Source: Bacteroidales bacterium
Lineage (GTDB): Bacteria; Bacteroidota; Bacteroidia; Bacteroidales; F082
Assembly (NCBI GenBank): GCA_017439405.1
Contig: JAFSJF010000151.1
Span: forward strand, 1-41,334
Reading direction: 5' to 3'
Length of the DNA: 41,334 nucleotides
In this document: positions 790-40,949 of the stretch, piece by piece
How the letters are laid out: every line of letters begins with the position of its first letter
How positions within the stretch are numbered: position 1 is the first letter of the stretch
Notes under the pieces: generated by a model
Told to the model about the DNA's origin: nothing
Databases searched by the model: none
Seen by the model: only the letters and a program-made list of their open reading frames with translations
Program-made: the position numbers and the translations under genes

Positions 790-1911
790 ATGATGAAAAA
801 TCCATTTGTCACGTCGGGCTATGAAGGGCCTGAATATTTCTGCGATAGGGAAGAGGAAACCGCGAAACTGATTCGGCTGCTGACCAATGGCAACAATGTC
901 GTCCTTATGTCGCCGCGACGTATGGGAAAGACGGGACTTCTCTATCACGCCTTCCGACAGGCTGGGATTGTGGATGAATATCACACTTTTATCATCGACA
1001 TCTATTCCACCAAGAACCTGAATGAATTGGTGGCGGAGATGGGGAAGGTAATCTTGAATACGCTCCAGTCGAGAAGTAAGAAGGCTTTTGACAAGTTTGT
1101 CAAGGTGGCCACTTCGCTGCGCCCGGGCGTGAGCTTCGACCCGTTTGGCAACCCGAATTGGAATGTCGAGGTGGGTACGATTCAATCCCCATCCGTTACG
1201 CTCGACCAGATTTTCGATTACATCAACCAGTCGGAAATTCCTTGCCTTGTCGCCATCGATGAATTCCAACAGATTGCCCATTATCCCGAAAAAAATGTGG
1301 AGGCTATTTTGAGGACCTATATCCAGCATTGTAGCAACGCCAATTTCGTGTTTTCCGGTTCGGAGCGGCATCTGCTTGCGGAAATGTTCTCCTCGCCGGC
1401 GCGTCCTTTTTATGCCTCCACATCGACGCTCAATTTGGAAAGTATCAACCTGTTAAAGTATGACGAGTTTGCAAAGGCGCATTTCGAGAAGGCTGAAAAA
1501 CAGCTCGAAACAGGCGTGGTAGAGACGATTTATGCTCGTTTTGAGGGTGTTACATGGTATATCCAAAAGGTGCTGAACTATCTTTTTGCCGATACCGCTG
1601 CGGGAGGATGTTGCAAAATGGAAATGATAGAAGTTGCCGTGGATGAAATTGTGAAAGACAACGGAACGATTTACGCCGACTTGCTTTATCAGCTGACAAT
1701 CAAGCAGAAAGAATTGCTTGTGGCCATTAATAAGGAAGGGAAAGTTAAGACAATAACCGGTTCGAAATTCATCAAGAAACACCATTTGACGGCTGCAAGT
1801 TCGGTTCAAACCACGGTCAAGTCGTTGATGGATAAGCAGTTGGTGACGAGTCATCTCGGCATTTATGAAGTTTATGACAAGTTTTTTGGAATTTGGCTAT
1901 CAAGACTATGA
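790..1911 (+). CDS. AAA-type ATPase of the ATPase_2/archaeal-ATPase kind
   Basis: 373 residues. The N-terminus NPFVTSGYEGPEYFCDREEE is typical of this widespread, poorly characterised Bacteroidota ATPase group. The Walker A-type loop SPRRMGKTG is at about residues 41-49, the Walker B strand CLVAIDEFQ at 152-160 and a sensor-like FSGSERHLL at 188-196. The last ~80 residues look like a winged helix ending in YEVYDKFFGIWLSRL, the usual C-terminal end of this family. ATP binding is well supported; the cellular role is unknown. ATG codons at 790 and 793 are both possible starts. The stop overlaps the Nudix gene's start as ATGA, so the two are probably translationally coupled. Confidence 0.85.
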   Translation: MMKNPFVTSGYEGPEYFCDREEETAKLIRLLTNGNNVVLMSPRRMGKTGLLYHAFRQAGIVDEYHTFIIDIYSTKNLNELVAEMGKVILNTLQSRSKKAFDKFVKVATSLRPGVSFDPFGNPNWNVEVGTIQSPSVTLDQIFDYINQSEIPCLVAIDEFQQIAHYPEKNVEAILRTYIQHCSNANFVFSGSERHLLAEMFSSPARPFYASTSTLNLESINLLKYDEFAKAHFEKAEKQLETGVVETIYARFEGVTWYIQKVLNYLFADTAAGGCCKMEMIEVAVDEIVKDNGTIYADLLYQLTIKQKELLVAINKEGKVKTITGSKFIKKHHLTAASSVQTTVKSLMDKQLVTSHLGIYEVYDKFFGIWLSRL

Positions 1912-4038: not shown

Positions 4039-4920
4039 TTAGTATTTGATTTTGAAGTAATTAAGAAAATCTTTGAAATTGTCTTGTGCGGTGAGGCAAG
4101 TGTCGCGCAGATAGCCGTTGGTTTTGCCCCAATTCTGGATGCCACGATAATAGAACAGGCGCAAGCCCTCGGTGATAACAAACGGAACGACAGCGTTTTG
4201 CAGGCATTGCCAGAGCATCAATAGCCTGCCGATGCGCCCGTTGCCGTCTTGGAAGGGGTGGATGCGCTCAAATCGCACGTGGAAATCCAGAATGTCGTCT
4301 ATCGTAAGCTGTTTCTTTGCGTTATATTCCGCAAGCAACGCTTTCATTTTCAGGTGGACTTCTTCAGGTTTGGTGGTTCCTTCCTCGCCGACGGCGTTGG
4401 CAAGCCGCTTGTAGTCGCCGATGGCAAACCACGACTTTTGGCTGTCTGAAGTGTTGGTTTGCAGCAGGAAATGAAGTTGCTTGACGTGGGTTTCCGTGAG
4501 TTTGTCGGTGGCGTGGTCGATGACATAGTCGATGCAACGGAAGTGGTTGACGGTCTCCAGGATGTCGTCGATGCGCGTGTTTTCCGTTGTGATGCCCAAT
4601 GTATTGGTCTCAAAAATGAAGCGTGTCTGTTCCTTGGTCAGGCGGCTGCCTTCGATGTGGTTGGAGTTATAGGTCATGTCGATTTGGACATGGTGGTATA
4701 TGCCGCCTTTCAACTTGCTTTCCTTTTGCTCGCGCAAGGCAATGAGCAGTGGCGAAACCTTTATTTTGCTGCGTTTGGGCAAAGCGGCCTCGGCGGGGAT
4801 GTTCCATGTCTTCCCCACGAGAAATGTACCCTCGATTTTGCCTGTTGAGCAGTAATTGCGGGCAGTGCGTTCGCTGATGCCATACTTTTCGGCAAACTGT
4901 TTGACGGAAATGTATTCCAT
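4039..4920 (-). CDS. Fic-domain protein with N-terminal helix-turn-helix
   Basis: 293 residues. Residues 1-50 (ISVKQFAEKYGISERTARN, then GKTWNIPAEA) form a MerR/excisionase-like DNA-binding helix-turn-helix. The Fic core motif HPFQDGNGRIGR is intact at 221-232, including the catalytic histidine. SNHIEG at 86-91 matches the (S/T)xxxE(G/N) inhibitory helix motif, here N-terminal to the core (class II). Fic enzymes usually transfer AMP from ATP to a target protein, and the inhibitory glutamate suggests tightly controlled activity. The target is unknown. The DNA-binding domain suggests autoregulation; matching inverted sites flank its promoter. Confidence 0.9.
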   Translation of the reverse strand: MEYISVKQFAEKYGISERTARNYCSTGKIEGTFLVGKTWNIPAEAALPKRSKIKVSPLLIALREQKESKLKGGIYHHVQIDMTYNSNHIEGSRLTKEQTRFIFETNTLGITTENTRIDDILETVNHFRCIDYVIDHATDKLTETHVKQLHFLLQTNTSDSQKSWFAIGDYKRLANAVGEEGTTKPEEVHLKMKALLAEYNAKKQLTIDDILDFHVRFERIHPFQDGNGRIGRLLMLWQCLQNAVVPFVITEGLRLFYYRGIQNWGKTNGYLRDTCLTAQDNFKDFLNYFKIKY

Positions 4921-6960: not shown

Positions 6961-7007
6961 ATAAGCCATAAGCTGTTAGCTTGGTGACTCGGTAGCTTAT
7001 GGCTTAT
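6961..7007. repeat. Left flanking repeat of the four-helix-bundle gene (14-bp inverted arms)
   Basis: ATAAGCCATAAGCT at 6961-6974 and its exact reverse complement at 6994-7007 form 14-bp arms around a 19-base loop. The unit contains GCTGTTAGC (6972-6980) followed by AGCTTATGGCTTAT, both echoed at 7402-7426 on the other side of the gene. Confidence 0.75.
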
Positions 7008-7015
7008 TCGTTTAT

Positions 7016-7369
7016 TCATAAATGTAATGTTTCTATAAACTTACCTAACATGGCTTTGATTTCTTTTACTTCTTTTTCAAGTTGGGCAGTAACTGTTTCA
7101 TCCATAAATCCTAAATCACATGACAGGCGCAACTCTTCTTCTACTTCAGATGCTGAACCCGCTGCAACGTTGAGAAAGTAAGCAAATTCGGCATCACTTC
7201 TTCTGCCGCATCCTTCTGCAATGTTGATAGGAATCGATGTGCTTGCTCTGCGAAGTTGGGAAGTCATTCCAAACAACTCTTCCTTTGGAAAACACTTTGT
7301 TTGTTTGTAAACGTCAAGCGCGAATAGATGCCCTCTTTGCCATACTTGGTATTTATGGAAATCTCTCAT
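7016..7369 (-). CDS. Four-helix-bundle protein (23S rRNA intervening-sequence / S23 type)
   Basis: 117 residues. YQVWQRGHLFALDVYKQTK, SQLRRASTSIPINIAEGCG, FAYFLNVAAGSASEVEEEL and LEKEVKEIKAMLGKFIETL match the TIGR02436-like four-helix-bundle family. Members were first seen as proteins encoded by 23S rRNA intervening sequences; the Avd protein of diversity-generating retroelements is related. The protein is helical and basic-patched, so nucleic-acid binding is plausible; its function as a free-standing gene is unknown. It interrupts the usual permease-PG0541 pair and is bracketed by related AGCTTATRGCTTAT repeats, which suggests the gene arrived as a unit. No reverse transcriptase or rRNA is nearby. 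Confidence 0.85.
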   Translation of the reverse strand: MRDFHKYQVWQRGHLFALDVYKQTKCFPKEELFGMTSQLRRASTSIPINIAEGCGRRSDAEFAYFLNVAAGSASEVEEELRLSCDLGFMDETVTAQLEKEVKEIKAMLGKFIETLHL

Positions 7370-7401
7370 TTTGTGCTTTTTATTGTTTAACTTCTAAATA
7401 T

Positions 7402-7448
7402 GCTGTCAGCCAAGCTTATAGCTTATAGCTTACTGCTTATTGCTTATC
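7402..7448. repeat. Right flanking repeat of the four-helix-bundle gene
   Basis: GCTGTCAGC (7402-7410) is followed by AGCTTATAGCTTAT (7413-7426) and further degenerate GCTTAT units to 7448. It repeats the left-side GCTGTYAGC and AGCTTATRGCTTAT motifs in the same orientation. It runs over the stop codon of the RND permease (7444-7446). Confidence 0.65.
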
Positions 7449-10400
7449 GAATATTCTCAGTAGCAGTCAATGCTTTTTCAGCCTTACGTTTTTTACGACG
7501 GACAGCCCTTGTTTCAAGCGAGCAATACAGCGCAGGGATTAATAATAAGGTAATCAAGGTGGAAACGGTCAAACCCCAAGCGACAGTCACACCCAACGAG
7601 TTCCACATTTCGGCACCTTCGCCGCGACCGATGGCCAACGGAATCATACCCAAGACGGTCGTCAGCGTGGTCATCAAAATGGGACGCAGACGCGAGCGGG
7701 CGGCTTGCACGGTGGCTTCCCTGACCTCGACGCCACGTTCCTCCAACAAAGTGGTGTAGTCGATGAGCACGATGCCGTTCTTCACGACGATGCCCATCAA
7801 GATCAGGATGCCGACGAAGGCCATCGCGCCCAAGGCGGTGTTGGTGACCCAAAGGCCGAGCAACACGCCTGTGAAGGTGAACGGCACGGAGAACATGATG
7901 ACGAAAGGCTTCATCAGGTTCTCGAACTGCGAGGCCATCACGATGTAAACCAAGATGATGATGAGGATGAGCAGGGTGAGCAGGTCGCCGAACATCTCTT
8001 GCTGGGTTTCGTAATCGCCGGCGATTTTGGTCATAATTTCGGCTGGGATTTCTGTGTCGTCGATGACCTCCTCGCACATCTTCACCACGTCACTCAGCAC
8101 TTGTCCTTTGCCGACGACGGCGGTGACGCTGACCATACGCTCGCGGTCCTTGCGCTGGATCTGGGGCGGGGTCAGGGTTTCGACCACTTCGCCGAGGTCG
8201 CCAACGCGGACGGGCTGTCCGTAGGTATTGTAAATCTTGATGTCCTCGATGTCTTCGATGCTCTTGCGGAACTCTGGGGCGTAGCGCACACGGATGTCGT
8301 ATTCCTCGCCGTCCTCGCGGTAGTAGGACCCCACCGAGCCGTTGATGCGGTTTTTGACGTAGGTGGCCGCCGTGGTGCTGTTCAGGCCGTTCAAGGCCAA
8401 CTTTTCGCGGTCGAAATCAACTTGATACTCAGGCGTGTATTCGTCGCGGCCCACGATGACTTGCAGGATGCCACGGTCGCGGAGTTTCTGTGCGATGTCG
8501 TTGGCCACGCGGTCGGTGGTGCCGAAGTCGTAGCCATAGACCTCGACCTGCACCGTGCTCATGCCGCCCATGCCGCCACCGCCCTCGTTGACGTTGGCCT
8601 TCTTGATTTCGGGGATGGCGTTGAGCTTCATGCGGATTTCGTCGGCCACCTCGCTGGTCTTGCGCAGTCCAGCCTTGCGTCGCTCGGTCTTGGTGCCGAG
8701 GCGCAGGTTGAACGACATGATGTGTGTGCCGTTGCTTCGCATCGACGCAAAGGCGTTGTCGGAGTCGGCCTGACCGAAGCTGTAGTTACAGATTTTAACT
8801 TCCGGAATGGCCATGAAATCCTCGGCGAGGCTCTTGGCCAAGGCACCGGTCACGTCTTGTCCCGTGCCCGTCGGCAACTCGATGTTGATGCTCAAGCGGC
8901 CTTCGTCCATCTTGGGCATCATCTCGGTCTTCAAGGTCGGGGCGAGGAAGACGATAGACAGGACGAATAGTCCCAACATGCCGAAAATCACCACTTTGCG
9001 ATGGTTGACACTCCAGTTGATGAGGCGGGCATAACCGTTGCTGATGGCATCCAAACCCTTGTTGATGGGCCGGAAAATGGCCTTGTGGAACTTGCTTTCG
9101 TGCGGGTTCATCACGAGCATTCGGGAGCACATCATCGGCACCAAGGTCAAGGCACCGATGGTGGAAACGACCATGATGATGGAAACAATCCAACCTAACT
9201 GCTTGAACATCACGCCTGTGGTGCCTTTGATCATCGTTAGCGGAAGGAACACGGCCAGCATGGTCAAGGTGGAGGCGATAACCGAAAGTTGCACTTCTTG
9301 CGTGGCGTGGACGGCGGCTTCCTTGGGCTTCGAGCCGCGCTCGATGTGGGTTGTGATGTTCTCTAACACCACAATGGCATCGTCCACCACCATACCGATG
9401 GCGATGGAAAGTGCCGACATGGAGATGATGTTCAGTGTGTTGCCCGTGGCGAACAGGTAAATCAACGAGGCCAAGAGCGAAATCGGGATGGCGAGCACGA
9501 TGATGAAGGTGGCGCGCCAGCGACCGAGGAACACGAACACGACCAACATCACCAAAATGAAGGTGATTAGGATGGTGTCGCGCAGGTTGTTGATGGTGTT
9601 TTGGATGGAGGTGGAACCGTCCACGATGATGTTCAGCTTGACGTCGGAGGGCAGGGTAGGCTCGATGACTTTCAGCTGTTTCTTGATGCCCTTGATGACG
9701 TTGACGGCGTTGGCATCGGTCTGCTTTTGGATGACGATGGTGGCGCCTTGGCGACCGTTGCTGTACGACTCTTGGATGCGTTCCTCCGAGCCGTCGACGA
9801 CCGAGGCCACGTCGCGCAGATAGATGGGCGCGCCGTTGCGAGAGCCGACGATGACCTCTTCCATTTCTTTGGCGGAGGTGAACTCCTTCTGGATGCGCAG
9901 GCTGTAGCTGTTAGAGCCGATGTCGATGTAGCCCGCCGGCACGTTACGGTTTTCGGTGGCCAAGGTGTTGGAGATGCTTTCAAGGGTCAAGTTGTAGGCT
10001 TCCAGCTTGTTAGGATCAACATAGACTTGGATTTCGCGCTTCGGCGCACCGTTGGCCGACACCGTGCCCACGCCGCTCACACGCGCCAAAGGCGTGGTGA
10101 CGCGGTCCTCGATGATCTTGTCCAAGGCGGCAAGGCTCTCGTCCGCCGTCACGCTGAGGAGCATGATGGGCATGTCCTCGGCGTTGAACTTGAACAGGAC
10201 GGGGTTGGTTGCGCCGTCAGGAAGATAGTTGCGTACCACGTCAATCTTGTCGCGCACGTTGTTGGTGGCCGTCTCGATGTCGATGCCGCTCTCAAACTCA
10301 AGCGACAGCACCGAAGTGTTCTCACGCGAGGTGGAGGAAAGGTGCTTCAGGTCGGGGACGGCGTTCAGCGTGTTCTCCAAGGTCTTGGAGATGTTGGTTT

Positions 10401-14225: not shown

Positions 14226-14350
14226 TTTGCTGATGTATTTAATGTTTGCGCAAAGATACATACTTTTTTTTTTCAGATGCTTTTTTTCGGATGAAATCTC
14301 AAATTATTTCCAAAAAATCACTAATATTGCAAATTTAAACTGCGAAAAAT

Positions 14351-17300
14351 ATGGCAAGAATATACGACAATATAGACACCAAGTTTTCCGAGGGGTTACA
14401 AGGCATCATTATGAATGTTGGGGTGAAAAGGGTGGACTTCTGTGTGGGTTACTTCAACCTCCGTGGATGGAACCTCGTGGTTGATCAAATCGATTCACTT
14501 GAAGGAGATTATGTCTATGAAAATGATGAACGGCATTTCCGTAAGTGTCGCTTGTTGATAGGTATGCATCGCCCTGCCGAAGAATTGATCCGGGAATTGT
14601 ATTCCGGCAAGACATTGCCTGATGCCAACTATGTCGCCCAATGCAAGTTGGAGATTGCTCGCGACTTCAAGAGGCAACTGCAATTGGGCTTGCCGACCAA
14701 ACAGGATGAGTTTACCCTGCGTCGCCTTTCTGCCCAAATGAAAGACGAAAAGGTGTGCGTGAAGTTGTATCTTCGTGAGCCGCTCCACGCAAAACTCTAT
14801 CTTGCCCATCGGCCCGACGACAACTTCAACAAGATTCAAGCCATTATGGGTAGCAGCAATTTGACCTATTCGGGCTTGACCAAGCAGGGCGAACTCAATG
14901 CCGAGTTTGGCGACAGCGACAGCGCGGAGAAACTTTCCCGTTGGTTTGACGACCGTTGGGAAGACAAGTTCTGCTTGGATATTACCAAGGAACTCATAGA
15001 AATCATCGATAACAGTTGGGCTGGTGAAAAGATAATCCCACCTTATTATATCTATCTGAAGACAGCGTACCACCTTAGCGAAGAGGCTCGGTTGGGCATC
15101 AAAGAGTTCACCATTCCTGCAGAGTTTCGCAGTTCGTTGTTCGATTTCCAGCAAACCGCTGTCAAAATTGCCGCACGGCATCTTAACAACGACAAGCGTG
15201 GCGGTGCTATGATTGGCGATGTAGTCGGATTGGGAAAAACCATTACTGCCTGCGCCATTGCCAAGATGTATGAGAATAGCTTTGGGAGCAACACTTTGAT
15301 TATTTGTCCAGCCAATTTGCAGGAAATGTGGGCAAAGTATCGGAAAGAATACGACTTGAAGGCAGACATCAGGTCGATGGCCAAGCCGATTGACGTGGAC
15401 AACGCCCGTTATTACCGCCTGATTATCGTTGACGAAAGCCACAACCTGCGCAACAATCAAGGTGTCCGCTACAAGAACATCAAAGACCTCATACAAAAGC
15501 AAGATTGCAAAGTCTTGTTGTTGACCGCCACACCCTACAACAAACATTATCAAGACTTGAGCAACCAACTCCGCTTATTCATTGACGATGATGCCGACTT
15601 GGGCATTCGTCCCGAAGCCTATATCAGGCAATTGGGCGGCGAGAGGAAATTCAACGAAAAGCACGAGGATTTCATTCGGAGCATCAAGGCTTTCGAGCGA
15701 AGCGAATGTCAGGAGGACTGGCAGGAACTTATGAAGTTGTTTCTGGTGCGCCGTACCCGTACCTTCATCAAGGAGAATTATGCCAAAACCGACCCAAATA
15801 ATGGCCGAAAATATCTGGAGTTCAAGGACGGGCATAAATCCTATTTTCCAGATCGTGTTCCCAAGGCCATCAAATTCAAGACGGAGGAAGGCGACCAATA
15901 CAGCCGTTTGTATTCCGAAAGCATGATTGCCATGATGGAAAGTCTGGAGTTACCCCGATATGGCTTGATACAATACTTAGACAAGAAAAAAGCTGAGGAG
16001 GCGTCAAAGTTCGAGCAGAACATCATCGAAAACCTATCCCGTGCCGGAGCGCGAATGATGGGCTTTTGCAAAAGCACGTTCTTCAAACGTATCGACAGCA
16101 GTGGCTTCTCTTTCCTGCTAACAATATTCCGCCATATCTTGCGCAACGCTGTATTCATCTATGCCATCGAGAACAAGCTCAAGTTACCCATAGGTGACGA
16201 AAACACCTTGCCAGAGGATTATTTGGACGATGCCGACATCAACGACATCTTTGAGCACGACAATGAAGAGGAGGAAAAACAATCAGGCGACGAGTTTATC
16301 CAGATTCCCGACGAAATGAAAGTGTATATGAAAAAAGCAGAAGAGTATTACAACAGTCTGATTGGAAAAAACAATGTGCAATGGATTGATTCGAAGTATT
16401 TCAAACGTACTCTCAAACAAAAACTTAACAAGGACTGCGAGACCTTGATTAAGATGATTAAGCTGTGTGGCGATTGGAACCCAAAGACCGACCAGAAGCT
16501 GGACGAATTGGAAGACTTGATTAACAAGACGCACAAAGGCGAGAAAGTAATTGTTTTCACCCAATATTCCGACACGGCCAACTACGTCTATCATCAGTTG
16601 AAAAAGCGTGGCTTGACCCAAATCGACAAGGCTACAGGCAATTCGCAGAATCCCACTGCCATCGTGGACCGCTTTTCACCTATCAGCAACAAGGCCGAAG
16701 TGTCGAAGGAAAACGAATTGATGGTGCTTATTGCAACCGATGTGCTCAGTGAAGGACAGAACCTTCAGGACGCACACGTCATCGTCAACTATGATTTGCC
16801 TTGGGCCATCATCCGATTGATTCAACGCGCGGGCCGTGTGGATCGTATCGACCAAAGCTCCGAACAGATTTTCTGCTATTCGTTCTTCCCAGCCGACAAA
16901 GTGGAAGAGATTATCCGCTTGCGCCGCAGGTTGAACGACCGCATCAACGAGAATGCCAACATCGTTGGAAGTGATGAGGTCTTCTTTGAAGGTAATGAGC
17001 AAAACTTGCGTGATATGTACAACGAAAAGAGCGGTAGCCTTGATGAGGACGATGACGACACCGATGTTGACCTTGGTTCACAGGCTTGGCAAATCTGGAA
17101 AAACGCCACTGATGCCAATCCCAAATTAAAGCAAATCATCCCCGAATTGAGCAACATCATCTATTCCACCAAAGCCGCACCAAACGGATTGGAGGACGGC
17201 GTGATTACCTACGCCCGCACATTCAACGACTTTGATGTGCTTTCGTGGTACAACTCCAAGGGCGAGATGGTAAGCCAATCGCAGAAACGCATCTTGCAGG

Positions 17301-17728
17301 CCATGGCTTGCCCCATCGACGAGCCTCGGTTGGAAGCCCAAGACAATCATTTGGAGTTGGTTGGAAAGGCTGTGCAGAACATCAGAACAGAGAACACCAA
17401 CGTGGGCGGCATCCTCGGCAGCCGTTTCAGCACCAAACGCCGCATCTATGAATTGCTGAATCATTATTATGAGCAACCCGATGACATCTTCAATCAAGAC
17501 AAAAAAGAATTCTTGAAGTTTGCCATCGACCAAATCTACAACTATCCTTTGCTCGAGAATTCCAAGTTCATCCTTGGCCGTATGATGCGCACAGGCAGCT
17601 CACAAGACGACATTGTGGACACGGTCATCGAAATGTATAAGAACGGAAACCTTTGTCGAGTTGATGAGGACAAAACCAAGCACAAAGACCCCGTCATCAT
17701 CTGTTCGATGGGACTGAAAAATGAATAA
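14351..17728 (+). CDS. PLD-nuclease / SNF2-type helicase fusion (defence)
   Basis: 1125 residues. An N-terminal phospholipase D-like domain (about 1-220) shows LHAKLYLAHR at 145-154 (HxK) and GSSNLTYSG at 167-175. The helicase follows: Walker A-like GDVVGLGKT at 289-297, DESH at 361-364, LTATP at 391-395, then a C-terminal half with VIVFTQYSDTANYVY, LIATDVLSEGQNL and QRAGRVDRI (about 825). The family would move along DNA and cut it; the target is inferred, not seen. It is the first gene of a tight four-gene operon with a methylase, the pattern of a restriction system. Only a weak -7 (TAATATTG, 14322-14329) was seen upstream. Confidence 0.88.
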   Translation: MARIYDNIDTKFSEGLQGIIMNVGVKRVDFCVGYFNLRGWNLVVDQIDSLEGDYVYENDERHFRKCRLLIGMHRPAEELIRELYSGKTLPDANYVAQCKLEIARDFKRQLQLGLPTKQDEFTLRRLSAQMKDEKVCVKLYLREPLHAKLYLAHRPDDNFNKIQAIMGSSNLTYSGLTKQGELNAEFGDSDSAEKLSRWFDDRWEDKFCLDITKELIEIIDNSWAGEKIIPPYYIYLKTAYHLSEEARLGIKEFTIPAEFRSSLFDFQQTAVKIAARHLNNDKRGGAMIGDVVGLGKTITACAIAKMYENSFGSNTLIICPANLQEMWAKYRKEYDLKADIRSMAKPIDVDNARYYRLIIVDESHNLRNNQGVRYKNIKDLIQKQDCKVLLLTATPYNKHYQDLSNQLRLFIDDDADLGIRPEAYIRQLGGERKFNEKHEDFIRSIKAFERSECQEDWQELMKLFLVRRTRTFIKENYAKTDPNNGRKYLEFKDGHKSYFPDRVPKAIKFKTEEGDQYSRLYSESMIAMMESLELPRYGLIQYLDKKKAEEASKFEQNIIENLSRAGARMMGFCKSTFFKRIDSSGFSFLLTIFRHILRNAVFIYAIENKLKLPIGDENTLPEDYLDDADINDIFEHDNEEEEKQSGDEFIQIPDEMKVYMKKAEEYYNSLIGKNNVQWIDSKYFKRTLKQKLNKDCETLIKMIKLCGDWNPKTDQKLDELEDLINKTHKGEKVIVFTQYSDTANYVYHQLKKRGLTQIDKATGNSQNPTAIVDRFSPISNKAEVSKENELMVLIATDVLSEGQNLQDAHVIVNYDLPWAIIRLIQRAGRVDRIDQSSEQIFCYSFFPADKVEEIIRLRRRLNDRINENANIVGSDEVFFEGNEQNLRDMYNEKSGSLDEDDDDTDVDLGSQAWQIWKNATDANPKLKQIIPELSNIIYSTKAAPNGLEDGVITYARTFNDFDVLSWYNSKGEMVSQSQKRILQAMACPIDEPRLEAQDNHLELVGKAVQNIRTENTNVGGILGSRFSTKRRIYELLNHYYEQPDDIFNQDKKEFLKFAIDQIYNYPLLENSKFILGRMMRTGSSQDDIVDTVIEMYKNGNLCRVDEDKTKHKDPVIICSMGLKNE

Positions 17729-17741
17729 AAACATTTGAAAT

Positions 17742-18611
17742 ATGACTAAGCGAGAAGCTTTACAACTGTTTGAACAAAGAAAGGTCCGTACCATTTGGGA
17801 CGACCAAGAAGAGAAATGGTATTTCTCCATTGTGGATGTGTGTGCTGTACTTACGGATAGTCCTAATCCTCGGAACTACTGGAAAGTCTTGAAACACAGA
17901 CTTGTAAAAGAAGGAAATGAAACGGTTACAAATTGTAACCAGTTGAAATTACTTGCAGAAGATGGGAAAAAGCGTTTAACCGATGTCGCTGATACAGAGC
18001 AACTTTTCCGCCTCATCCAATCCATCCCTTCGCCCAAGGCCGAGCCTTTCAAGCAATGGATGGCCCAAGTGGCCAGCCAGCGCATCGACCAAATGCAAGA
18101 CCCGGAAAGGAGTATTGACCAGGCCATCATCGACTATAAGCGATTGGGCTACAGTGATGCTTGGATCAACCAACGCATCAAGTCAATCGAGGTGAGGAAA
18201 GAACTCACCGACGAATGGAAGCGCACTGGCGTAAAGGAAGGATTGGAATATGCCTCACTCACCGACATCATCACTCGCGAATGGAGCGGCTTCACAACCA
18301 AACAGTACAAACAATTCAAAGGCTTGAAAAAAGAGAACTTGCGCGACAATATGACCAACCTCGAAATTGCCTTCAACATTTTGGCAGAGGCATCGGCCAC
18401 GGAACTTTCCAAACAACGCGATCCACAAGGTTTCCAACAGCAGGCCAAGGTCGCAAAGGATGGCGGCAGTGTGGCCAAAGTTGCACGCAAGCAATTGGAA
18501 AGCCAACTGGGGCATAGCGTTATCTCGCCTGCAAAGGCCAGCGACTACTTGCTCCAGGAACAAACTGATTCGACAAACAACGACACCGACTATGAACAGA
18601 CGGACCTTTAA
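17742..18611 (+). CDS. BRO-N / phage antirepressor-like protein
   Basis: 289 residues. The first ~115 residues (IWDDQEEKWYFSIVDVCAVL, NYWKVLKHRLVKEGNE, DTEQLFRLIQSIPSPKAEPF) match the BRO N-terminal DNA-binding domain of baculovirus and phage antirepressors. The rest (YKRLGYSDAWINQRIKSIEV, LKKENLRDNMTNLEIAFNIL, TELSKQRDPQGFQQQ) is the helical extension seen in chromosomal Bacteroidota members. It sits 13 bases after the helicase and overlaps the methylase by 20 bases. BRO, RhuM, Fic and DinD-like genes are often embedded in restriction operons. A role in controlling the operon or sensing phage proteins is inference. Confidence 0.85.
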   Translation: MTKREALQLFEQRKVRTIWDDQEEKWYFSIVDVCAVLTDSPNPRNYWKVLKHRLVKEGNETVTNCNQLKLLAEDGKKRLTDVADTEQLFRLIQSIPSPKAEPFKQWMAQVASQRIDQMQDPERSIDQAIIDYKRLGYSDAWINQRIKSIEVRKELTDEWKRTGVKEGLEYASLTDIITREWSGFTTKQYKQFKGLKKENLRDNMTNLEIAFNILAEASATELSKQRDPQGFQQQAKVAKDGGSVAKVARKQLESQLGHSVISPAKASDYLLQEQTDSTNNDTDYEQTDL

Positions 18612-21600
18612 CCAATACGTCTCAGAAAGCAATTTCCGCGAACTGTTTATAAGCGAAATGGGATGGAACAATCCCCAAGGGCAAGCACTATTCGACATCA
18701 CTGTTGACGAAACGCCTTTCGAGTTCCATCTGATTGCCGAGCGCAACGGCTTCCAAGTGCTCACTTGCGCTGTGGATTCCATTCCTACTTCCTCTCTGTG
18801 CAAGAAATTAGACTCACGCTTGCGTCGCTCAGCCAACGACTACATCTGCATCTTTATCCAAAAAGGCACGAGCCATCACCTGTGGGCGGTGCCGGTGAAA
18901 AAGGTGGAGAAACGCGACATCGTTTTGGTCGAATATCTTAACGCGGAAGCCGCAGGTTTCCTGTTCGAGAAAATCGAGGGCTTGTCATTCGAATTGGACG
19001 AGAGAAGCACTATTACCGATGTGGTGGAACGGGTGCAGGCTGCCTTCATCGTCAATTCCGAAAAGGTCACCAAGGACTTCTATACAGGCTTCAAAAAAGA
19101 GCACACCAACTTCGCCAAGTTCATTTCGGGCATCGACGACCAGATTGCCGACAAGGACAACCGCAACAAGCAATGGTACACCTCGGTAATGCTCAACCGC
19201 TTGATGTTCTGCTACTTCATCCAAAAGAAAGGCTTCCTCGACGGGGATGTGGATTATCTGCGCCACAAGTTGGAATGGACGCAACAAGAGCGAGGCGAAA
19301 ACCGCTTCTTCAGCAGTTTCTATAAAGGTTTTCTGACCACCCTCTTCCACGGCGGACTGAACGCGCCGAAACACGACCGCGATTTCGAAAATGTGTATGG
19401 CCGTATTCCTTATCTCAACGGTGGTATGTTCGATGTGCATCAGATTGAACAGGATTATGCCGAACTCGACATTGCCGACGATGCCTTCATCAGTTTGTTC
19501 GATTTCTTCGACAAGTGGCATTGGCACCTCGACGACCGCCTCACCGCCACGGGCAAGGACATCAACCCCGATGTGCTGGGCTATATCTTTGAGCAATACA
19601 TCAACGACCGCGCCCAAATGGGAGCCTACTACACCAAGGAGGACATCACTGAATACATCGGGCGCAATACCATCGTTCCCTATTTGATGGATGCCACACT
19701 GGGTTCGCGGACGTCCCGTCCGCAAACGGAAAAGAAAATCTGGCAATTCCTCCAACAGAACGGCGACCGCTACATCTTCGACGCCGTGAAGAAAGGCGCT
19801 GGCTTGGCAATTCCCGATGAGATTGCCATTGGCCTCGATACCACACAGCCCAATCTCTTGGAGCGGCGCAAGCATTGGAACGACCGCACCCCAGAGGCCT
19901 TTGCCTTGCCCACTGAGATTTGGCGCGAGACTATTGAGCGACTGCAACGCTACAACAGCATCAAGGCGAAGATTGAAAACGGCGAGATTACGAGCACCAA
20001 CGATTTCATCACCTACAACCTTGACATTCGCCAGTTTGTTTACGACCTGTTGAACCACACCAACGACCATCTTTTGGTGAAGCATTTCTATGCCGAATTG
20101 CAGAAGGTGACCATTCTTGACCCCACTTGCGGTTCGGGTGCGTTCCTCTTTGCCGCGCTCAACATCTTGGAACCGTTGTACGAGGTCTGCATCAGCCGTA
20201 TGCAGGAATTCCACGCGCAGAACCCCAACCTCTTCAAGGACGAGTTGCAGGAGATTGAGCACAAATACCGCAGCAACATCCAGTATTTCATCTACAAGAG
20301 CATCATATTGCGCAACCTTTATGGCGTTGACATTATGGTGGAGGCCACCGAGATTGCCAAGTTGCGCCTGTTCCTGAAGATGGTGGCCGTGGTGGAGGTG
20401 AACAAGCGCGAGCCCAACCTCGGCCTCGACCCCTTGCCCGACATCGACTTCAACATCCGTTGCGGCAACACCCTTGTGGGCTATGCCACCAAAGCCGAGT
20501 TGGACCGCGACCTGGGTTTTGCCAAGGACATCTTGGAGGAATTGGCCAACCAAGAGCTTAAGCAACAGCTGGAGGACGAGATGGACAAGGTGGCTCACGC
20601 CTACGATATGTTCAAGCACATCCAACTCACGCAGGGCGACGATATGGAGACTTTCAAGGAATCAAAGAAGGGGTTGAAAGCCCGCTTGGTTGCTTTGAAC
20701 GACTTGCTCAACCGCCGGCTGTTTGCAGCCACCGTGGGCACGGATGCCGACTACGAAGCCTGGCTTGCCTCGCACCAACCTTTCCATTGGCTCGCCGAGT
20801 TCTACGAAATCATCAACGACAACGGCGGCTTTGATGTAATTATTGGAAATCCGCCGTATTTAGAAGTCCGACAAATTGATTATAAAATAAGCGGATATAA
20901 AACGATTGATAGTGGGGCCGTTCATGCTTTTTGTATGGAAAGAAGCTTGAATCTGATTCATACAAAAGGAAATATGAGCATGATTGTACCGATAGCTTTG
21001 GTATGTACTCAAAGAATGACAACCATTCAACAACTACTTGAAAACAATAGAAGTTCATGGTATAGTAACTTTGCTTGGCGTCCAGCAAAGTTGTTTGATG
21101 CTGTAAACAGAGCATTATCGATTTTTGTAGTAAATGCAAGTGATACGATTCATCATTATACTACTCCTTATCAAAAGTGGATTTCTGAAAACAGGAAGAA
21201 TCTATTTAAAGAAATATCATACACACAATATGATGTTCGAAGAGATTCTTTTTGGATGCCAAAATTAAGTTCTGATGTTGAGAATCGGATATTGGAGTGC
21301 ATATTAAGGCAACCGAAAACAATTGGAAATTACATTACTAATCGTTCACAGAGCAAAGTTTATTATAGAACAACAGGAGGTTTGTATTGGAAGGTGTTTA
21401 CAAATTTTGCCCCCAGGTTTTTATGCAATGGAGTTGAAGGACACTCAAGTCGAGAAACATGTTTAATTATTCCGAATGACAATCAATCATCATCAATTGT
21501 GGCTTTTTTGAGTAGTAATTTGTTTTGGTGGTGGTATACTGTCACATCCAACCTTCGAGATTTAAATCCATCAGATATTTATGGAATTAGATTTCCAGAA

Positions 21601-21864
21601 AATTTAATCGAGAACCCAACATTACAAAAACTTGGAATAAAGTATTTAGATGATTTGAAAGCTAATAGTACAATGTTAACAAGGGAACAAAAGAATGTCG
21701 GAACTACTCAAACCCAATCCTTCAAAATCAATAAATCCAAGCCCATCATCGACGAGATAGACAAAGTGTTGGCGAAGCACTATGGATTCACGGAGGAGGA
21801 ATTGGACTTCATCATCAATTACGACATCAAGTATCGGATGGGGGATGAGTTGAATGAGGAATAA
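18592..21864 (+). CDS. Eco57I-class adenine DNA methylase, probable restriction-modification protein
   Basis: 1090 residues from the ATG at 18592, which overlaps the previous gene. The N-terminal ~200 residues (NFRELFISEMGWNNPQGQAL and a beta-rich stretch) are common in large Eco57I-type proteins. The AdoMet motif DPTCGSGAFLF is near residue 510 and the catalytic NPPY at 753-756. These enzymes methylate adenine N6. AYYTKEDITEYIGRNTIVPY and the C-terminal VLAKHYGFTEEELDFIINYD are typical. Bases 20838-21715, the recognition part, are visibly AT-rich against GC-richer flanks, which suggests domain exchange. A hairpin repeat at 19704-19724 adds about 7 residues (GSRTSRP). No separate nuclease motif was found here. 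Confidence 0.9.
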   Translation: MNRRTFNQYVSESNFRELFISEMGWNNPQGQALFDITVDETPFEFHLIAERNGFQVLTCAVDSIPTSSLCKKLDSRLRRSANDYICIFIQKGTSHHLWAVPVKKVEKRDIVLVEYLNAEAAGFLFEKIEGLSFELDERSTITDVVERVQAAFIVNSEKVTKDFYTGFKKEHTNFAKFISGIDDQIADKDNRNKQWYTSVMLNRLMFCYFIQKKGFLDGDVDYLRHKLEWTQQERGENRFFSSFYKGFLTTLFHGGLNAPKHDRDFENVYGRIPYLNGGMFDVHQIEQDYAELDIADDAFISLFDFFDKWHWHLDDRLTATGKDINPDVLGYIFEQYINDRAQMGAYYTKEDITEYIGRNTIVPYLMDATLGSRTSRPQTEKKIWQFLQQNGDRYIFDAVKKGAGLAIPDEIAIGLDTTQPNLLERRKHWNDRTPEAFALPTEIWRETIERLQRYNSIKAKIENGEITSTNDFITYNLDIRQFVYDLLNHTNDHLLVKHFYAELQKVTILDPTCGSGAFLFAALNILEPLYEVCISRMQEFHAQNPNLFKDELQEIEHKYRSNIQYFIYKSIILRNLYGVDIMVEATEIAKLRLFLKMVAVVEVNKREPNLGLDPLPDIDFNIRCGNTLVGYATKAELDRDLGFAKDILEELANQELKQQLEDEMDKVAHAYDMFKHIQLTQGDDMETFKESKKGLKARLVALNDLLNRRLFAATVGTDADYEAWLASHQPFHWLAEFYEIINDNGGFDVIIGNPPYLEVRQIDYKISGYKTIDSGAVHAFCMERSLNLIHTKGNMSMIVPIALVCTQRMTTIQQLLENNRSSWYSNFAWRPAKLFDAVNRALSIFVVNASDTIHHYTTPYQKWISENRKNLFKEISYTQYDVRRDSFWMPKLSSDVENRILECILRQPKTIGNYITNRSQSKVYYRTTGGLYWKVFTNFAPRFLCNGVEGHSSRETCLIIPNDNQSSSIVAFLSSNLFWWWYTVTSNLRDLNPSDIYGIRFPENLIENPTLQKLGIKYLDDLKANSTMLTREQKNVGTTQTQSFKINKSKPIIDEIDKVLAKHYGFTEEELDFIINYDIKYRMGDELNEE
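19704..19724 (+). repeat. CRGACGTCYCGTCYG-type hairpin repeat, copy 2
   Basis: A 7-bp stem, GCGGACG (19707-19713) and CGTCCGC (19717-19723), lies in frame within the methylase and encodes SRTSRP. It matches the minus-strand reading of 389-409. One A:T pair there is a G:C pair here, so pairing is kept while the sequence changes. Confidence 0.65.
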
Positions 21865-22378
21865 ACTGGAATATCTTGGCAACAGAGACCTATTGAAGTT
21901 ACCCAAGACAGCATTCTTGGCTTCGAACACGATTTCATCGGAAACCGTGTTGCGCTGTTATGACTGGGCTACAGAAATGCGCCGTCAAGGGAGGTGCGTG
22001 GTCAGCGGTTTCAGCTCAAAGCTGGAGAAAGATGTGCTGCATTTTCTGCTGAAAGGGGAGCAACCTGTCATTATTGTGTTGGGAAGGCAGATGTATAAAG
22101 TTGTGCCTGCGGATTTGAAAGAGGCGTTGGAACAGAACCGTTTGCTCATCATTTCCACCTCCAATGCGGCAAGGCAATCAAGGGCAACCGCACTGGCTCG
22201 AAACAGGTATGTTTGCGAGATGGCGGAGCAAGTTGTATTGGTTGGCACTGATGCAAGCCTCGGCCTCCGCTCCTTGGCTGAAGCATTTAGGGCAAAGACT
22301 TGTGAACTGGTCAGAAGTCACGAAAAGTCTGAAAATGAGGTTCTTGTGAATATGCCAACTCCCACATCTGTTCTATGA
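21854..22378 (+). CDS. DprA/SMF-like Rossmann-fold protein of the defence operon
   Basis: 174 residues. VVSGFSSKLEKDVLHFLLKG (49-68) and ALARNRYVCEMAEQVVLVGT (113-132), followed by SLGLRSLAEA, follow the order of DprA/SMF proteins: a glycine-rich loop after a strand, then RNR-x(5-8)-LVV. DprA binds single-stranded DNA and loads RecA; here the protein is short and lacks flanking domains, so it is a stand-alone Rossmann domain. It could also belong to the lysine-decarboxylase/LOG-like superfamily. The start overlaps the methylase end by 11 bases, so it is part of the operon. It converges with the MATE gene, overlapping by 6 bases. Confidence 0.7.
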   Translation: MRNKLEYLGNRDLLKLPKTAFLASNTISSETVLRCYDWATEMRRQGRCVVSGFSSKLEKDVLHFLLKGEQPVIIVLGRQMYKVVPADLKEALEQNRLLIISTSNAARQSRATALARNRYVCEMAEQVVLVGTDASLGLRSLAEAFRAKTCELVRSHEKSENEVLVNMPTPTSVL

Positions 22379-23677
22379 AAACATTCTTTTCAGCCTCCTC
22401 ATCGACCACCACATCAACGGCAGGCTGACAAACAATGTCAGCACTTCGGCGATGGGCATACTGAGCCAGATGCCCAACTGCCCGATGATGGGGGTGAGGA
22501 CGAACAAGGGAATCAGGACGAAGACGATGCTGCGGCACACGGCGATGACGACCGACTCGATGGGCCGCTCGATGGCGGTGTGGAAGCTGCTCCCGATGAT
22601 GTTGACGAAAGAAACAAGGTAATGCAGGGTGACGTAAGTGGTGGCCACCATCGCCAACTCGTGCAGTTCGGGGTCGCCTTCGGAGAAGGCTCCCACGATG
22701 CCGTTTTTGAAGACGAGGACGACCAAATAAACGCCCACGCCAATGCAACCGCCAAAGAGTATTGAATTGAGCAACAACGATTTGATTTGCTGGTAATCCT
22801 TTGCGCCAAGGTTGTAAGACATGAGTGGATAAAGTGCTTGCGACAGCCCGAAAATCGACATGTTGACGATGAAGTTGAAATAGCAAACGATGGTGAGCGC
22901 GGCCACGCCCTTCGGCCCGATGTCGCGCATAAGCACAATATTGAATATGTAGGTGGTGATGGCCGCCGACACCGAGGTGAGCATTTCGGATGAGCCGTTG
23001 AAGAAAACCTTCCCGACCTCGCGCTTGCCGCCCATCAGCTTGCCAAAGCGCACGTTGTGGAGCAGCACCAAGGCCGCAGTGGTGTTGGCCAAGCATGTGG
23101 CGATGGCCGCGCCCGCCACGCCCCAACCGAAACGCAAGACGAAGAAATAGTCGAGCACCACATTGACCACGCAGCAAATCACGCCGCTGGTGAAGACCCA
23201 GTTGGGCTTGCCGCGCAGTCGGGTGAAAGCCTCGGTGAAGTTGGGGATGCAATAGAAGACGAACCCGCAACCGATGATGCCAAGGTATTGGCGCACAAGT
23301 GGATAAACCTCGTCGTTGCAGCCTAAAAGATAACACAACCGTTTGAGGTTGAACGCAACCAAGGCCGAGAGCAAAAGGATGGTGGTCAGTAGGACGACGA
23401 AAGTAAGCGTGGTGTAGCCCCGCACGCGCTCATCGTCGCCATTGCCTTGGGCGATGCCCGCGATGACGACGCCGCCCGAAATGATCATGATGGCCACGCT
23501 GAGCATCACGCTGATGAGCGGCATGCTCAGGTTGACGGCGGCCAAGCCCAAGGCACCCACGCCACGGCTCACAAACAGCCCGTCGATGATGGTCTGAAGC
23601 CCCACGATGAGCATCCCGACGATGCTCGGAAGAGCATAGCGCAACAATTGTTTCCGCGTGGAATCGGTCAGGTTCAT
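22373..23677 (-). CDS. MATE-family multidrug/cation exporter
   Basis: 434 residues from the ATG at 23677 (MNLTDSTRKQLLRYALPSIV), the usual MATE N-terminus. The open frame extends 140 codons further upstream but crosses a promoter and has no protein-like composition. About twelve membrane helices are visible, with TIIDGLFVSRGVGALGLAAV in the first repeat and CYFNFIVNMSIFGLSQALYP in the second. MATE proteins export drugs or toxins using Na+ or H+. It may be unrelated to the convergent defence operon. A -7 element TATTTTTG is present on the minus strand at 23711-23704. Confidence 0.9.
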   Translation of the reverse strand: MNLTDSTRKQLLRYALPSIVGMLIVGLQTIIDGLFVSRGVGALGLAAVNLSMPLISVMLSVAIMIISGGVVIAGIAQGNGDDERVRGYTTLTFVVLLTTILLLSALVAFNLKRLCYLLGCNDEVYPLVRQYLGIIGCGFVFYCIPNFTEAFTRLRGKPNWVFTSGVICCVVNVVLDYFFVLRFGWGVAGAAIATCLANTTAALVLLHNVRFGKLMGGKREVGKVFFNGSSEMLTSVSAAITTYIFNIVLMRDIGPKGVAALTIVCYFNFIVNMSIFGLSQALYPLMSYNLGAKDYQQIKSLLLNSILFGGCIGVGVYLVVLVFKNGIVGAFSEGDPELHELAMVATTYVTLHYLVSFVNIIGSSFHTAIERPIESVVIAVCRSIVFVLIPLFVLTPIIGQLGIWLSMPIAEVLTLFVSLPLMWWSMRRLKRMFS

Positions 23678-39211: not shown

Positions 39212-40126
39212 ATGGCATACATAACAAAGTATAATTTCGATAAGTTATTTAACAACAGGTATCGTTATGATGCTACAAAAAAACTTAAAGGCACAATAGA
39301 GTTGATGGAGCGTATCGTATGCTATTATAGTGACGATGAAATGCAAAGATTTTTGGCGTATCGAGAATTAGCTAAAGACCCTGCCAGCTTTTTGGGTTTG
39401 TATAAAATACCATTTAAAGACACTTATACTTATGTGTGGGAAGCACCTCCTGCATATCATAATAGTTCTAGTTGTGAGTTGCTTCTAAGCGATTATTCAG
39501 GGAAGGGAGCTATAATACCTGATGAGATTAGACGACTAGGTTATGATATGATTGTTAAATATCGGGAGTTTTATAAAAACAATAAAACTATTCATGACAA
39601 GGATCCACAAATGTTCTTTAATTTAGTCAATAAAACCTTTCATACAAATATCTCTGGAGAAAATATAGATTCCGACTATGCGGCTAATTCTGGGGTAAAA
39701 CAAATTCCAAACATACCGTTAGAAAGATTGATTGAGGTATTTAATCGTAATGTTGAGGTGTTGTTGAAGTATTGGAATGCCCATATTATTGTTTGTAGTA
39801 ATTTTGCGAAACGTTCATATTACATTACTGATTACGTTAGAAAAAATGGCCCTAATGTGTTTTATACAAATACATCTGATATGTCCAATACCAAAGGAAA
39901 AGTTTTTAACGGAACTGGAATTAGTAATGCTTTGGTGATTGATAGGGTTAGAGAGATACAACATTTAAAATCGTTCATGAGCGGTCAAATAAAAGATATA
40001 ATTCTGAAAAAATATAATCCTCTTGTTTCGATGGATTCTACATTATTAGATGCATTAGGTTTTAAGAGATGCAGCAAATGTGGTTATAATGTCGTTAGAA
40101 CAATGGGGACAAACTTAATAAAATAA
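39212..40126 (+). CDS. Unrecognised protein in an AT-rich patch
   Basis: 304 residues, not recognised. It is soluble and has no signal peptide. A single Cys pair, CSKCGYNV, lies near the C-terminus (about residue 288) and could bind a metal if paired with other ligands. Blocks of note are DKLFNNRYRYDATKKLKGTI at the start and LLKYWNAHIIVCSNFAKRSY in the middle. Codon choice is much more AT-rich than in the genes before 38300, which suggests transfer. It is followed 4 bases later by a retropepsin-like gene and may be in the same transcript. Confidence 0.65.
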   Translation: MAYITKYNFDKLFNNRYRYDATKKLKGTIELMERIVCYYSDDEMQRFLAYRELAKDPASFLGLYKIPFKDTYTYVWEAPPAYHNSSSCELLLSDYSGKGAIIPDEIRRLGYDMIVKYREFYKNNKTIHDKDPQMFFNLVNKTFHTNISGENIDSDYAANSGVKQIPNIPLERLIEVFNRNVEVLLKYWNAHIIVCSNFAKRSYYITDYVRKNGPNVFYTNTSDMSNTKGKVFNGTGISNALVIDRVREIQHLKSFMSGQIKDIILKKYNPLVSMDSTLLDALGFKRCSKCGYNVVRTMGTNLIK

Positions 40127-40130
40127 CAAT

Positions 40131-40538
40131 ATGAAACACTCGTTAAAGGATACTCTTGAAAAAGTCAAGATGACTTTGATTAATGTCAGAGTTCAGGATT
40201 TTACCTTTACTTTTGACATAGATACAGGCTCAACGGAAAACATTGTATTTGATTATGTTTCTAACCAATTGCCGAATGTATTCAAGCCTGTTGTTGGATG
40301 CAATAAGGTGTTTGGCATCGACGGGAAATATCAAGAAAACCAGCTTGTTGAGGCGGAATTGTCAATAGGTGACAATAGTTTTATGACCCAATTAAATGTT
40401 GTAAATGCAGACCAAACCGTTATTAATCTTCAAAATGATTTTGGTTTTCAATTGCATGGCATACTCGGTATCCCTTTTTTAGAAGAGAATGATTGTGTTA
40501 TTGATTTTAAGAACAAATTATTTATAATAGGAGAGTGA
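40131..40538 (+). CDS. Retropepsin-like aspartic protease
   Basis: 135 residues without signal peptide. FTFDIDTGSTENIVFD holds the DTGS active-site motif (about residues 31-34), VFGIDGKYQENQ fits the flap, and HGILGIPFLEENDCVIDF matches the second conserved hydrophobic block of clan AA single-domain proteases. These act as homodimers, each chain supplying one aspartate. The substrate is unknown. It is placed between two unrecognised genes with gaps of 4 and 3 bases, so the three probably work together. Confidence 0.75.
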   Translation: MKHSLKDTLEKVKMTLINVRVQDFTFTFDIDTGSTENIVFDYVSNQLPNVFKPVVGCNKVFGIDGKYQENQLVEAELSIGDNSFMTQLNVVNADQTVINLQNDFGFQLHGILGIPFLEENDCVIDFKNKLFIIGE

Positions 40539-40541
40539 TTT

Positions 40542-40949
40542 ATGTCAAACATTGAAGAATTACAGAAAGACCTGTCACCAAGTGACTTGCAAATGACGCA
40601 AACAATAGACGTTCTGCTTGAACGTGGACTTTGGCAAAGAGCTTTTCTCCTAGCAAGTAAGAATTTGGACGATAGCCTAAAGGAAATGCATGGTTTTCTA
40701 ATAAAGCATTACGATATCTATGAGTATTATCGAGATGAAGACCCTAATATTGATGATACAGCGGGACTTTGGTACGATGCTTTTGTCAACAGTAGTACAG
40801 GCAAGTTTCTTCCGTCTATCAATAACCTTTTGAAAGTATTCGGCAAGGCAATCAACGAAATAGATTCCGTAAACCCAGTCGTCAATTATGATGTTGAACT
40901 TGAAGAATTACGGGATACTATTGATACCATACTTCAAGAAGAATCCTAA
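40542..40949 (+). CDS. Unrecognised small helical protein
   Basis: 135 residues, predicted all-helical by eye (IDVLLERGLWQRAFLLASKN, NNLLKVFGKAINEIDSV). It is acidic, with no signal peptide, membrane helix or motif. It follows the retropepsin-like gene after 3 bases and is convergent with the prolyl-tRNA editing gene 5 bases away. It could be a partner or substrate of the protease, which is only a suggestion. Confidence 0.6.
   Translation: MSNIEELQKDLSPSDLQMTQTIDVLLERGLWQRAFLLASKNLDDSLKEMHGFLIKHYDIYEYYRDEDPNIDDTAGLWYDAFVNSSTGKFLPSINNLLKVFGKAINEIDSVNPVVNYDVELEELRDTIDTILQEES

Follow-up and report, generated by a model that had tools for sequence, protein, structure and literature searches.

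Within a 41,334-nucleotide stretch of DNA from a Bacteroidales bacterium (GenBank assembly GCA_017439405.1, contig JAFSJF010000151.1; hereafter the window), a predicted operon of four forward-strand open reading frames (ORFs) encodes a nuclease-helicase fusion (P1), a BRO-N protein (P2), an N6-adenine methylase (P3) and a short DprA-like protein (P4). This unit is, on balance, probably a copy of a mobile restriction-modification platform that offers slots for interchangeable immune genes and closes with the DprA-like gene. On this reading the window holds a bare copy of the platform, with nothing in slot B (between P3 and P4) and the BRO-N gene in slot A (the P1-P3 junction). The evidence observed directly comprises the anatomy of the locus, the conservation of its backbone, the variable slot, the swapping of a recognition region, the co-inheritance of its genes and the borders of the insert that holds them. 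The features of the unit are as follows; L numbers denote loci or contig stretches of relatives, and G numbers denote genomes.

14351–17728, forward strand: P1, fusion of a PLD (HKD-type) nuclease and a SNF2 helicase, 1125 amino acids (aa), backbone.
14786–14893, forward strand: PLD active-site stretch of P1 (H146, K148, N170, E181), each the same in all 25 aligned P1 copies.
15227–15442, forward strand: helicase motifs GLGKT (residues 293–297) and DESH (361–364) of P1, from the alignment.
17742–18611, forward strand: P2, BRO-N protein, PADLOC candidate PDC-S13, 289 aa, predicted accessory gene in slot A.
18592–21864, forward strand: P3, Eco57I/type IIG-like N6-adenine methylase, 1090 aa from the ATG at 18592, backbone.
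20119–20145, forward strand: S-adenosylmethionine (SAM) motif DPTCGSGAF of P3 (residues 510–518); D510, P511, G514 and G516 in 23 of 23 copies.
20848–20859, forward strand: catalytic motif NPPY of P3 (residues 753–756); NPP in 23 of 23 copies, Y in 20 of 23.
20860–21731, forward strand: exchangeable target-recognition region of P3, from a DNA match break against L005, L006 and L092 and a drop in protein identity.
21854–21864, forward strand: slot B, empty here (the 11-base P3/P4 overlap), with 1–6 ORFs in 14 relatives.
21854–22378, forward strand: P4, short DprA-like protein of 174 aa, encoded at the end of the unit.
14269–22387, no strand: insert with the whole unit, missing in L226 and L227 by flank comparison.

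An earlier note, made from the letters of this DNA, had described four genes bound into one transcript by a 13-base gap (P1/P2) and overlaps of 20 (P2/P3) and 11 bases (P3/P4), and the coordinates agree with this gap and these overlaps, as the Pfam domains do with the gene identities that it gave. Above the curated cut-offs, P1 matched PLDc_2 and SNF2/Helicase_C, P2 Bro-N, P3 the Eco57I methylase and P4 DNA_processg_A. The best PADLOC models were 'C3a139 HKD+Snf2' for P1 (173 bits), PDC-S13 for P2 (447 bits; residues 1–279 on model positions 1–279 of 286), REase_MTase_IIG PDLC03628 for P3 (866 bits, full length) and PsyrA for P4 (49 bits; ShosA, 19 bits), and an NCBIfam scan of the four proteins reached no curated cut-off among the matches listed. 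Similarity at the DNA level to L005, L006, L137 and L139 starts within one base of the P1 ATG and, for L005 and L006 (apparently the contigs of L131, genome G127, and of L130, genome G093, respectively), continues unbroken to 20859–20864 within P3. Compared with L005 and L006, ratios of non-synonymous to synonymous substitution rates (dN/dS) were 0.026–0.096 for P1, P2 and residues 1–750 of P3 (P3 against L006 only). Because of this unbroken similarity, the low dN/dS and the one insert common to all four genes, their grouping is considered more than chance. A sequence scan, which was not used, returned 20 promoter-like sites against 11.5 expected and 7 terminator-like sites against 10.7 expected.

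The proposal of the earlier note that a nuclease-helicase and an adenine methylase form a restriction-type locus is upheld by the Pfam domains and by the motifs kept: the SAM and NPPY motifs of the methylase are intact, as are the nuclease site and ATPase motor of P1. Residues H146, K148, N170 and E181, which we take to be those of the PLD nuclease active site, were kept together with K296, D361 and E362 in all 25 aligned P1 copies. A search with P1 at E values up to 1e-60 matched 6 of 173 genomes of the family, 14 of 395 drawn from the phylum and 11 of 393 drawn from the order, making 27 different genomes overall; P3 was present in the same six family genomes. Wherever both genes were fetched on one contig, P3 came after P1 (28/28 loci, two of them degenerate). 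Plasmid records with a P1 match numbered 113, and the six examined (three from Cyanobacteriota, one from Desulfuromonadales and two from Actinomycetota) each had P1 first and a match to the P3 profile, weak or cut short in two. Co-occurrence in other genomes, on which the earlier note had staked its case, thus holds for the P1-P3 backbone; the tabulation of gene order that it had called for gave a constant order of P1 and P3, together with a variable slot between P3 and P4 that it had not noticed. Two broken P1-P3 copies (L141, L142) were seen near both sequence ends of G215, a single-contig genome of 2.2 Mb.

Residues 1–220 of the window P3 hold no [DE]xK motif, and in its relatives this region has scattered [DE]xK motifs in several copies and no triad conserved at 95%. 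Since the nuclease and helicase residues of P1 and the methylase motifs of P3 are kept and no [DE]xK was found in the first 220 residues of the window P3, a division of labor is suggested by which P3 would mark DNA and P1 would probably search for and cut DNA that is unmarked. Sequence searches of solved structures at 0.01 returned none for P3 and helicase matches only for P1, and the structure model of P3 (mean predicted local distance difference test score, pLDDT, 31.8) was unusable. Compared in blocks of 50 residues with three close relatives, P3 is mostly 82–100% identical up to residue 750, with a few blocks at 60–72% (the P3 of L131, its frame broken, was compared from residue ~266 only); identity is 10–42% from ~750 to about 1050, and the final 40 residues are 95% identical in two of the three. 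The DNA match to L005, L006 and L092 ends at 20859–20891 and restarts at 21724–21757. This drop in identity, coupled with the break and restart of the DNA match, identifies an exchanged target-recognition region. At 14098–14205 of L006, downstream of the stop (14087) of its own swapped P3, lies a stretch matching the tail of the window P3 (21757–21864) at 93.5%, which is probably a scar of such an exchange.

Slot B was surveyed in the 15 loci whose P1, P3 and P4 share a contig, using a simple longest-ORF caller (≥70 aa). It is empty in the window and filled in the other 14 with 1–6 mostly different ORFs (32 in total), all 32 of which lie on the operon strand, with gaps ranging from overlaps of 23 bases to 433 bases. 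The contents are:

L130: DUF3644 protein (PDC-S19) and a 269-aa protein.
L131: DUF1016/YhcG nuclease (PDC-S02).
L132: ParA-like ATPase, 127-aa protein and SLFN_AlbA protein.
L133: RhuM (PDC-S05).
L139: DUF2971 protein (PDC-S31, 101 bits) and two small genes.
L140: DarT and DarG.
L144: deaminase-HATPase protein.
L145: PDC-M59A and a Fic/Doc protein.
L146: DUF3800 pair (PDC-M04AB), Hsp70-like and UvrD-like genes, and others.
L150: MTaX1-HNH nuclease.
L154: GajA (565 bits) and GajB (425 bits), Gabija.
L155: relatives of the L132 ParA-like pair and a 428-aa protein.
L157: NYN protein (HEC-09).
L160: relative of the L157 NYN protein.

A direct PADLOC scan, covering the cargo other than the small ORFs and part of L146, gave matches above 100 bits in nine of the 14 filled slots, and L160 became a tenth through its blastp cluster. 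Two further cases are likely: L143, with KwaB (288 bits) 0.6 kb after P3 and P4 on another contig, and L191 (G332, a short contig), where DarG, PDC-M59A and a 145-aa gene precede P4. In L153, HEC-01A- and HEC-01B-like genes (148 and 30 bits) come after P1-P3, and P4 was found neither in its 19.5 kb nor elsewhere in that genome. The 428-aa protein of L155 (6228–7511) and the ParA-like ATPase of L132 with its 127-aa partner (7344–8342 and 6974–7354) are slot genes that matched no PADLOC model at 1e-10; the unmatched slot genes of these two loci are candidate new defense modules.

The DprA-like gene goes with the backbone more than the BRO-N gene does. P4 was found in nine of 173 family genomes, including all six with P1 (Fisher P 2e-9), and in 16 of 395 phylum genomes, 10 of the 14 with P1 versus 6 of the 381 others (Fisher P 3e-13). 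Five of eight further P1 genomes of the order draw also had it, while four P1 genomes of the phylum draw again gave none, which brings the total to 20 of 27; the match in G435 is only 59 residues long, and P4 lies on a different contig from P1 in G435, G227, G332, G863 and G099. The distances among P1 copies and those among P4 copies correlate (r = 0.62, 14 loci, Mantel P 0.0001), also with L130, L131, L139 and L150 left out (r = 0.65, 10 loci, P 0.0045). P4 scored 30.9 bits against the curated NCBIfam DprA, whose cut-off is 191, and the host has a separate, normal dprA elsewhere in its genome (PF02481, 254 bits). A sequence search of solved structures with P4 gave a weak DprA match, and its structure model is similar to DprA and to ShosA (structure 8zva; template modeling score, TM, 0.50–0.59 on the query), although with three sequences behind the model and a mean pLDDT of 60 these fold matches are supportive only. 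The DprA-like protein RqlI is described as restraining its helicase-phosphoribosyltransferase partner RqlH, and DprA homologs have been described as antitoxins or possible sensors of phage DNA (PMC4670107, PMC9122126). Because of the DprA/ShosA-like model and these described antitoxins and sensors, a sensing or restraining role is, by analogy, the most likely one for P4.

The BRO-N protein has a different distribution. Its relatives were followed in the best 80 of 567 confirmed matches, several of whose contigs end near the BRO-N gene, and P1 and P3 adjoined it in only two (L005 and L006). In L058 a distant P1-P3 pair (25–28%) lies about 4.6 kb from the BRO-N gene and in L056 a partial P3-like match lies about 3.5 kb away; the genes next to the other relatives are of varying size, orientation and distance. 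The host genome gave four BRO-N matches, one of them P2. Within the genus, three genomes (the window, L130 and L131) have a BRO-N gene at the P1-P3 junction and one more, G099, has it ahead of P3; it was found at that junction in no fetched relative from outside the genus. Among the latter, the junction is empty in 18 fetched loci (including L157, where P1 is in two pieces), and elsewhere it holds a KilA-N gene (L144), relatives of a DUF1016 gene (L152) and of a DUF3800 gene (L148), or other genes (L159, L161). In three cyanobacterial plasmids (L177, L179, L181) it holds a small gene followed by a VapC-type toxin. The junction is thus a first slot, mostly empty. P2 is under purifying selection within the genus (dN/dS 0.034–0.038), and no credible relative of it of solved structure was found by sequence. 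BRO-N as a core subunit was rejected, 78 of its best 80 relatives lying away from P1 and P3 and the junction lacking it outside the genus; judged by this distribution, it is accessory cargo. The claim of the earlier note that the four genes form one set does not survive these observations.

All four genes lie within a single insert of ~8.1 kb. The Band_7 gene upstream was found in 31 of 99 genomes of the genus, and stretches from seven of these were compared. In L226 and L227, the matches to the two window flanks are only 32 and 33 bases apart, which sets the borders of the insertion at 14269–22387; in the other five stretches, the MATE-gene stretch is not adjacent to Band_7. Positions 14269–22387 were unmatched in all seven, one of which comes from a genome (G127) that has the system elsewhere, on a different contig. 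No integrase or transposase was recognized in the insert by inspection of the Pfam matches of the four unit proteins, and no target-site duplication was seen by eye at its borders. The unit DNA had no plasmid match, P4 had none in phages or plasmids, and a short-pattern scan of viral contigs found neither P4 nor P3; carriage of the window copy by a phage or plasmid was consequently rejected.

Several observations weigh against a platform closed by P4. Seven of the 27 P1 genomes had no P4 match (three of the seven are 70–84% complete), and the P4 profile matched in none of the six plasmid loci, all from outside Bacteroidota; the backbone therefore does without P4 elsewhere. Conversely, P4 occurs without P1 in 3 of 167 genomes from the family and 6 of 381 from the phylum, at least once apparently as a lone chromosomal gene. 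Among these copies, the L134 contig starts in a P3 tail, L183 adjoins a shortened P3, L186 and L187 are at contig ends, and in L135 and L136 P4 follows other genes. Within the genus, P4 is 57–74% identical compared with 96–98% for P1, and its synonymous distances are saturated, hence no dN/dS value; the 3' half of the unit appears to be either exchanged or fast-changing there. The G099 copy is spread over two contigs, one (L137) with a P1 that breaks off before secA and the other (L092) with P2-P3; this P1 matches the window to residue 1056 only, after which comes the secA-like ORF (named by eye), and it is either a truncated copy or an assembly join. With regard to the cargo, the PADLOC matches of L144 (63 bits) and L150 (42 bits) are weak, and three proteins of L132 and one of L155 had none. 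In the control, some of 29 flanking genes also matched PADLOC (1e-10, 69 models), each model among the matches listed being found in one member only.

Three of these P4 loci have features of their own. L185 and, by position, also L184 (G338 and G559, of one genus) place a P4 relative in similar surroundings as a seemingly lone chromosomal gene. L135 shares the RND/TolC flank of the window and has a DUF4062 protein (PDC-S60), a Schlafen/AlbA protein and P4, without P1 or P3.

In the platform as proposed, P3 would mark host DNA by methylating adenines within a site that its exchangeable recognition region determines. P1, directed to unmarked sites probably through P3, would translocate by its SNF2 motor and cut with its PLD nuclease. 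Slots A and B would take up extra immune genes, here BRO-N in A, and we infer from the identity of the cargo and from known embedded cases that such modules may act as a backup upon failure of the restriction layer. P4 would bind or sense single-stranded DNA and restrain or trigger either P1 or an embedded effector, as with RqlHI and as proposed for ShosTA. A bolder version, which we regard as rather unlikely, makes P4 the common switch of a two-layer chassis, a stripped-down sensor of single-stranded DNA by which the backbone would hold or release whichever effector sits in the slot. Were it true, both the recognition region and the backup weapon would be exchangeable while sensor, motor and methylase stay constant.

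The competing account to which we give most weight, although it too is somewhat unlikely, treats P4 as a passenger at the edge of a recombination hot spot, and the slot modules as independent defenses parked in an expressed operon. The diversity of the cargo, often self-sufficient as with Gabija and DarTG, speaks for it, as do the divergence of P4 together with the 3' half in the genus and its position after other genes without P1/P3 in L135 and L136; set against these are the retention of P4 next to an empty slot (in the window, and in L183, which has a short P3 and gave no P1 match), the correlated distances of P1 and of P4 and the co-occurrence in 20 of 27 genomes. It is very improbable that the four genes make up one obligate new system with the BRO-N and DprA-like proteins as required subunits: their tight spacing and common insert, and the retention of BRO-N at or beside the junction in four genus genomes at low dN/dS, would fit, but outside the genus the junction is empty in 18 loci or filled with KilA-N, DUF1016, DUF3800, VapBC or other genes, and 78 of the best 80 BRO-N relatives lie elsewhere.

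A type IIG enzyme, in which P3 alone cuts and methylates and P1 is an unrelated neighbor, is barely credible. The name of the best PADLOC model of P3 and its full-length match favor it; the [DE]xK results, scattered motifs in several relatives notwithstanding, and the constant precedence of P1 in the 28 fetched and six plasmid loci tell against it, and the type IIG label was rejected on motifs. Derivation from Type-2 BREX-related (BR) systems by loss of DUF499 and DUF3780 is quite improbable, even though these share the helicase-nuclease architecture and methylase class and are described with embedded backup effectors (PMC12839542). No DUF499 match was found in the host genome, where the control matched one of 14 genomes; DUF3780 was likewise unmatched, but with no control genome matched this proves little. 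The platform with interchangeable slots is preferred to all of these.

With respect to named systems, the earlier note had reported the usual BREX, DISARM and type I subunits to be missing, and none was found among the ten other window proteins scanned. P1 scored 137.8 bits against a cut-off of 610 for DrmD of DISARM (the set DrmD/DrmA/DrmB/DrmC/DrmM), with no Drm match in those ten proteins, and P3 scored 54 bits against a cut-off of 500 for BREX, in which PglX is accompanied by PglZ and BrxC. Type ISP and type I restriction systems (LlaGI, LlaBIII, HsdRMS) are like the unit in pairing a methylase that has a C-terminal recognition region with an ATP-driven translocase-nuclease; the unit differs in being split over two proteins and in using a PLD nuclease instead of PD-(D/E)xK. 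For the relative on Synechocystis pSYSX, slr6095 is classed in the literature with type I genes, and no evidence on methylation was drawn from it. Type-2 BR systems are described with an N-terminal HKD nuclease on a Swi2/Snf2 helicase, an N6-adenine methylase and embedded backup effectors, as in the unit, and the terms 'DprA' and 'SMF' are absent from the main text of that account (PMC12839542); the unit differs from them in lacking DUF499 and DUF3780 among the Pfam matches of P1–P4. SauUSI, like P1, is described as a PLD nuclease fused to a helicase but, unlike P1, as having a C-terminal SRA domain and cutting near modified sites (PMC12707154).

Embedding itself has precedents. PrrC is described within EcoprrI (PMC12707154), effectors within BREX and BR systems (PMC12839542) and, between hsdS and hsdR of the type I operon of the RRDM island, DarTG2 (a different gene pair in four genomes; PMC12255303); in the present family, the second modules are many and different and stand ahead of the DprA-like gene. 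Hma-embedded candidates (HEC) and the PADLOC PDC candidates, credited to Payne et al. 2024 (PMC12988326), follow the same logic of guilt by embedding, and PDC-S13, S02, S05, S19, S31, M04, M59 and HEC-09 are matched here, on a backbone that is not Hma. ShosTA and PsyrTA (RqlHI) have a DprA-like partner, P4 resembling PsyrA (49 bits) and ShosA structure 8zva, and differ in that the Pfam matches of P1–P3 include no phosphoribosyltransferase domain.

Elsewhere in the window, three other regions were recorded:

4039–4920, reverse strand: Fic protein ~9 kb away from the operon, matching PDC-S04 (341 bits), with an N-terminal helix-turn-helix match below threshold.
790–1911, forward strand: ATPase_2-family (archaeal-type) ATPase with no PADLOC match at 1e-8.
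39212–40126, 40131–40538 and 40542–40949, forward strand: three adjacent ORFs with no Pfam match at 0.001.

The suggestion of an undescribed subtype can be retained for the P4-bracketed arrangement only, sets of an HKD-Snf2 protein and an N6-methylase being familiar from Type-2 BR systems; both this class of backbone and embedding in restriction loci are already known. Among the papers listed in searches of open-access PMC, with bioRxiv and most subscription journals lying outside them, none described a PLD-SNF2/methylase operon that ends in a DprA-like gene. The P4-closed platform with its many cargoes appears new, and the source study of the PDC and HEC candidates (Payne 2024) may contain such loci. 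Two labels are also corrected: P3 does not look like a type IIG enzyme that cuts by itself, and BRO-N would be cargo, not core.

For the biology of the family, slot B is a natural collecting site for immune genes. Since nine to ten of its 14 filled copies hold known or candidate anti-phage modules, its unannotated genes are good defense candidates, among them the ParA-like pair (L132/L155), the 428-aa protein of L155, the 269-aa protein of L130 and a 209-aa gene of L139. The role of DprA-like proteins outside competence was called elusive before the description of a defense pair of DprA and phosphoribosyltransferase (PMC9122126), and the platform provides a testable setting for such proteins.

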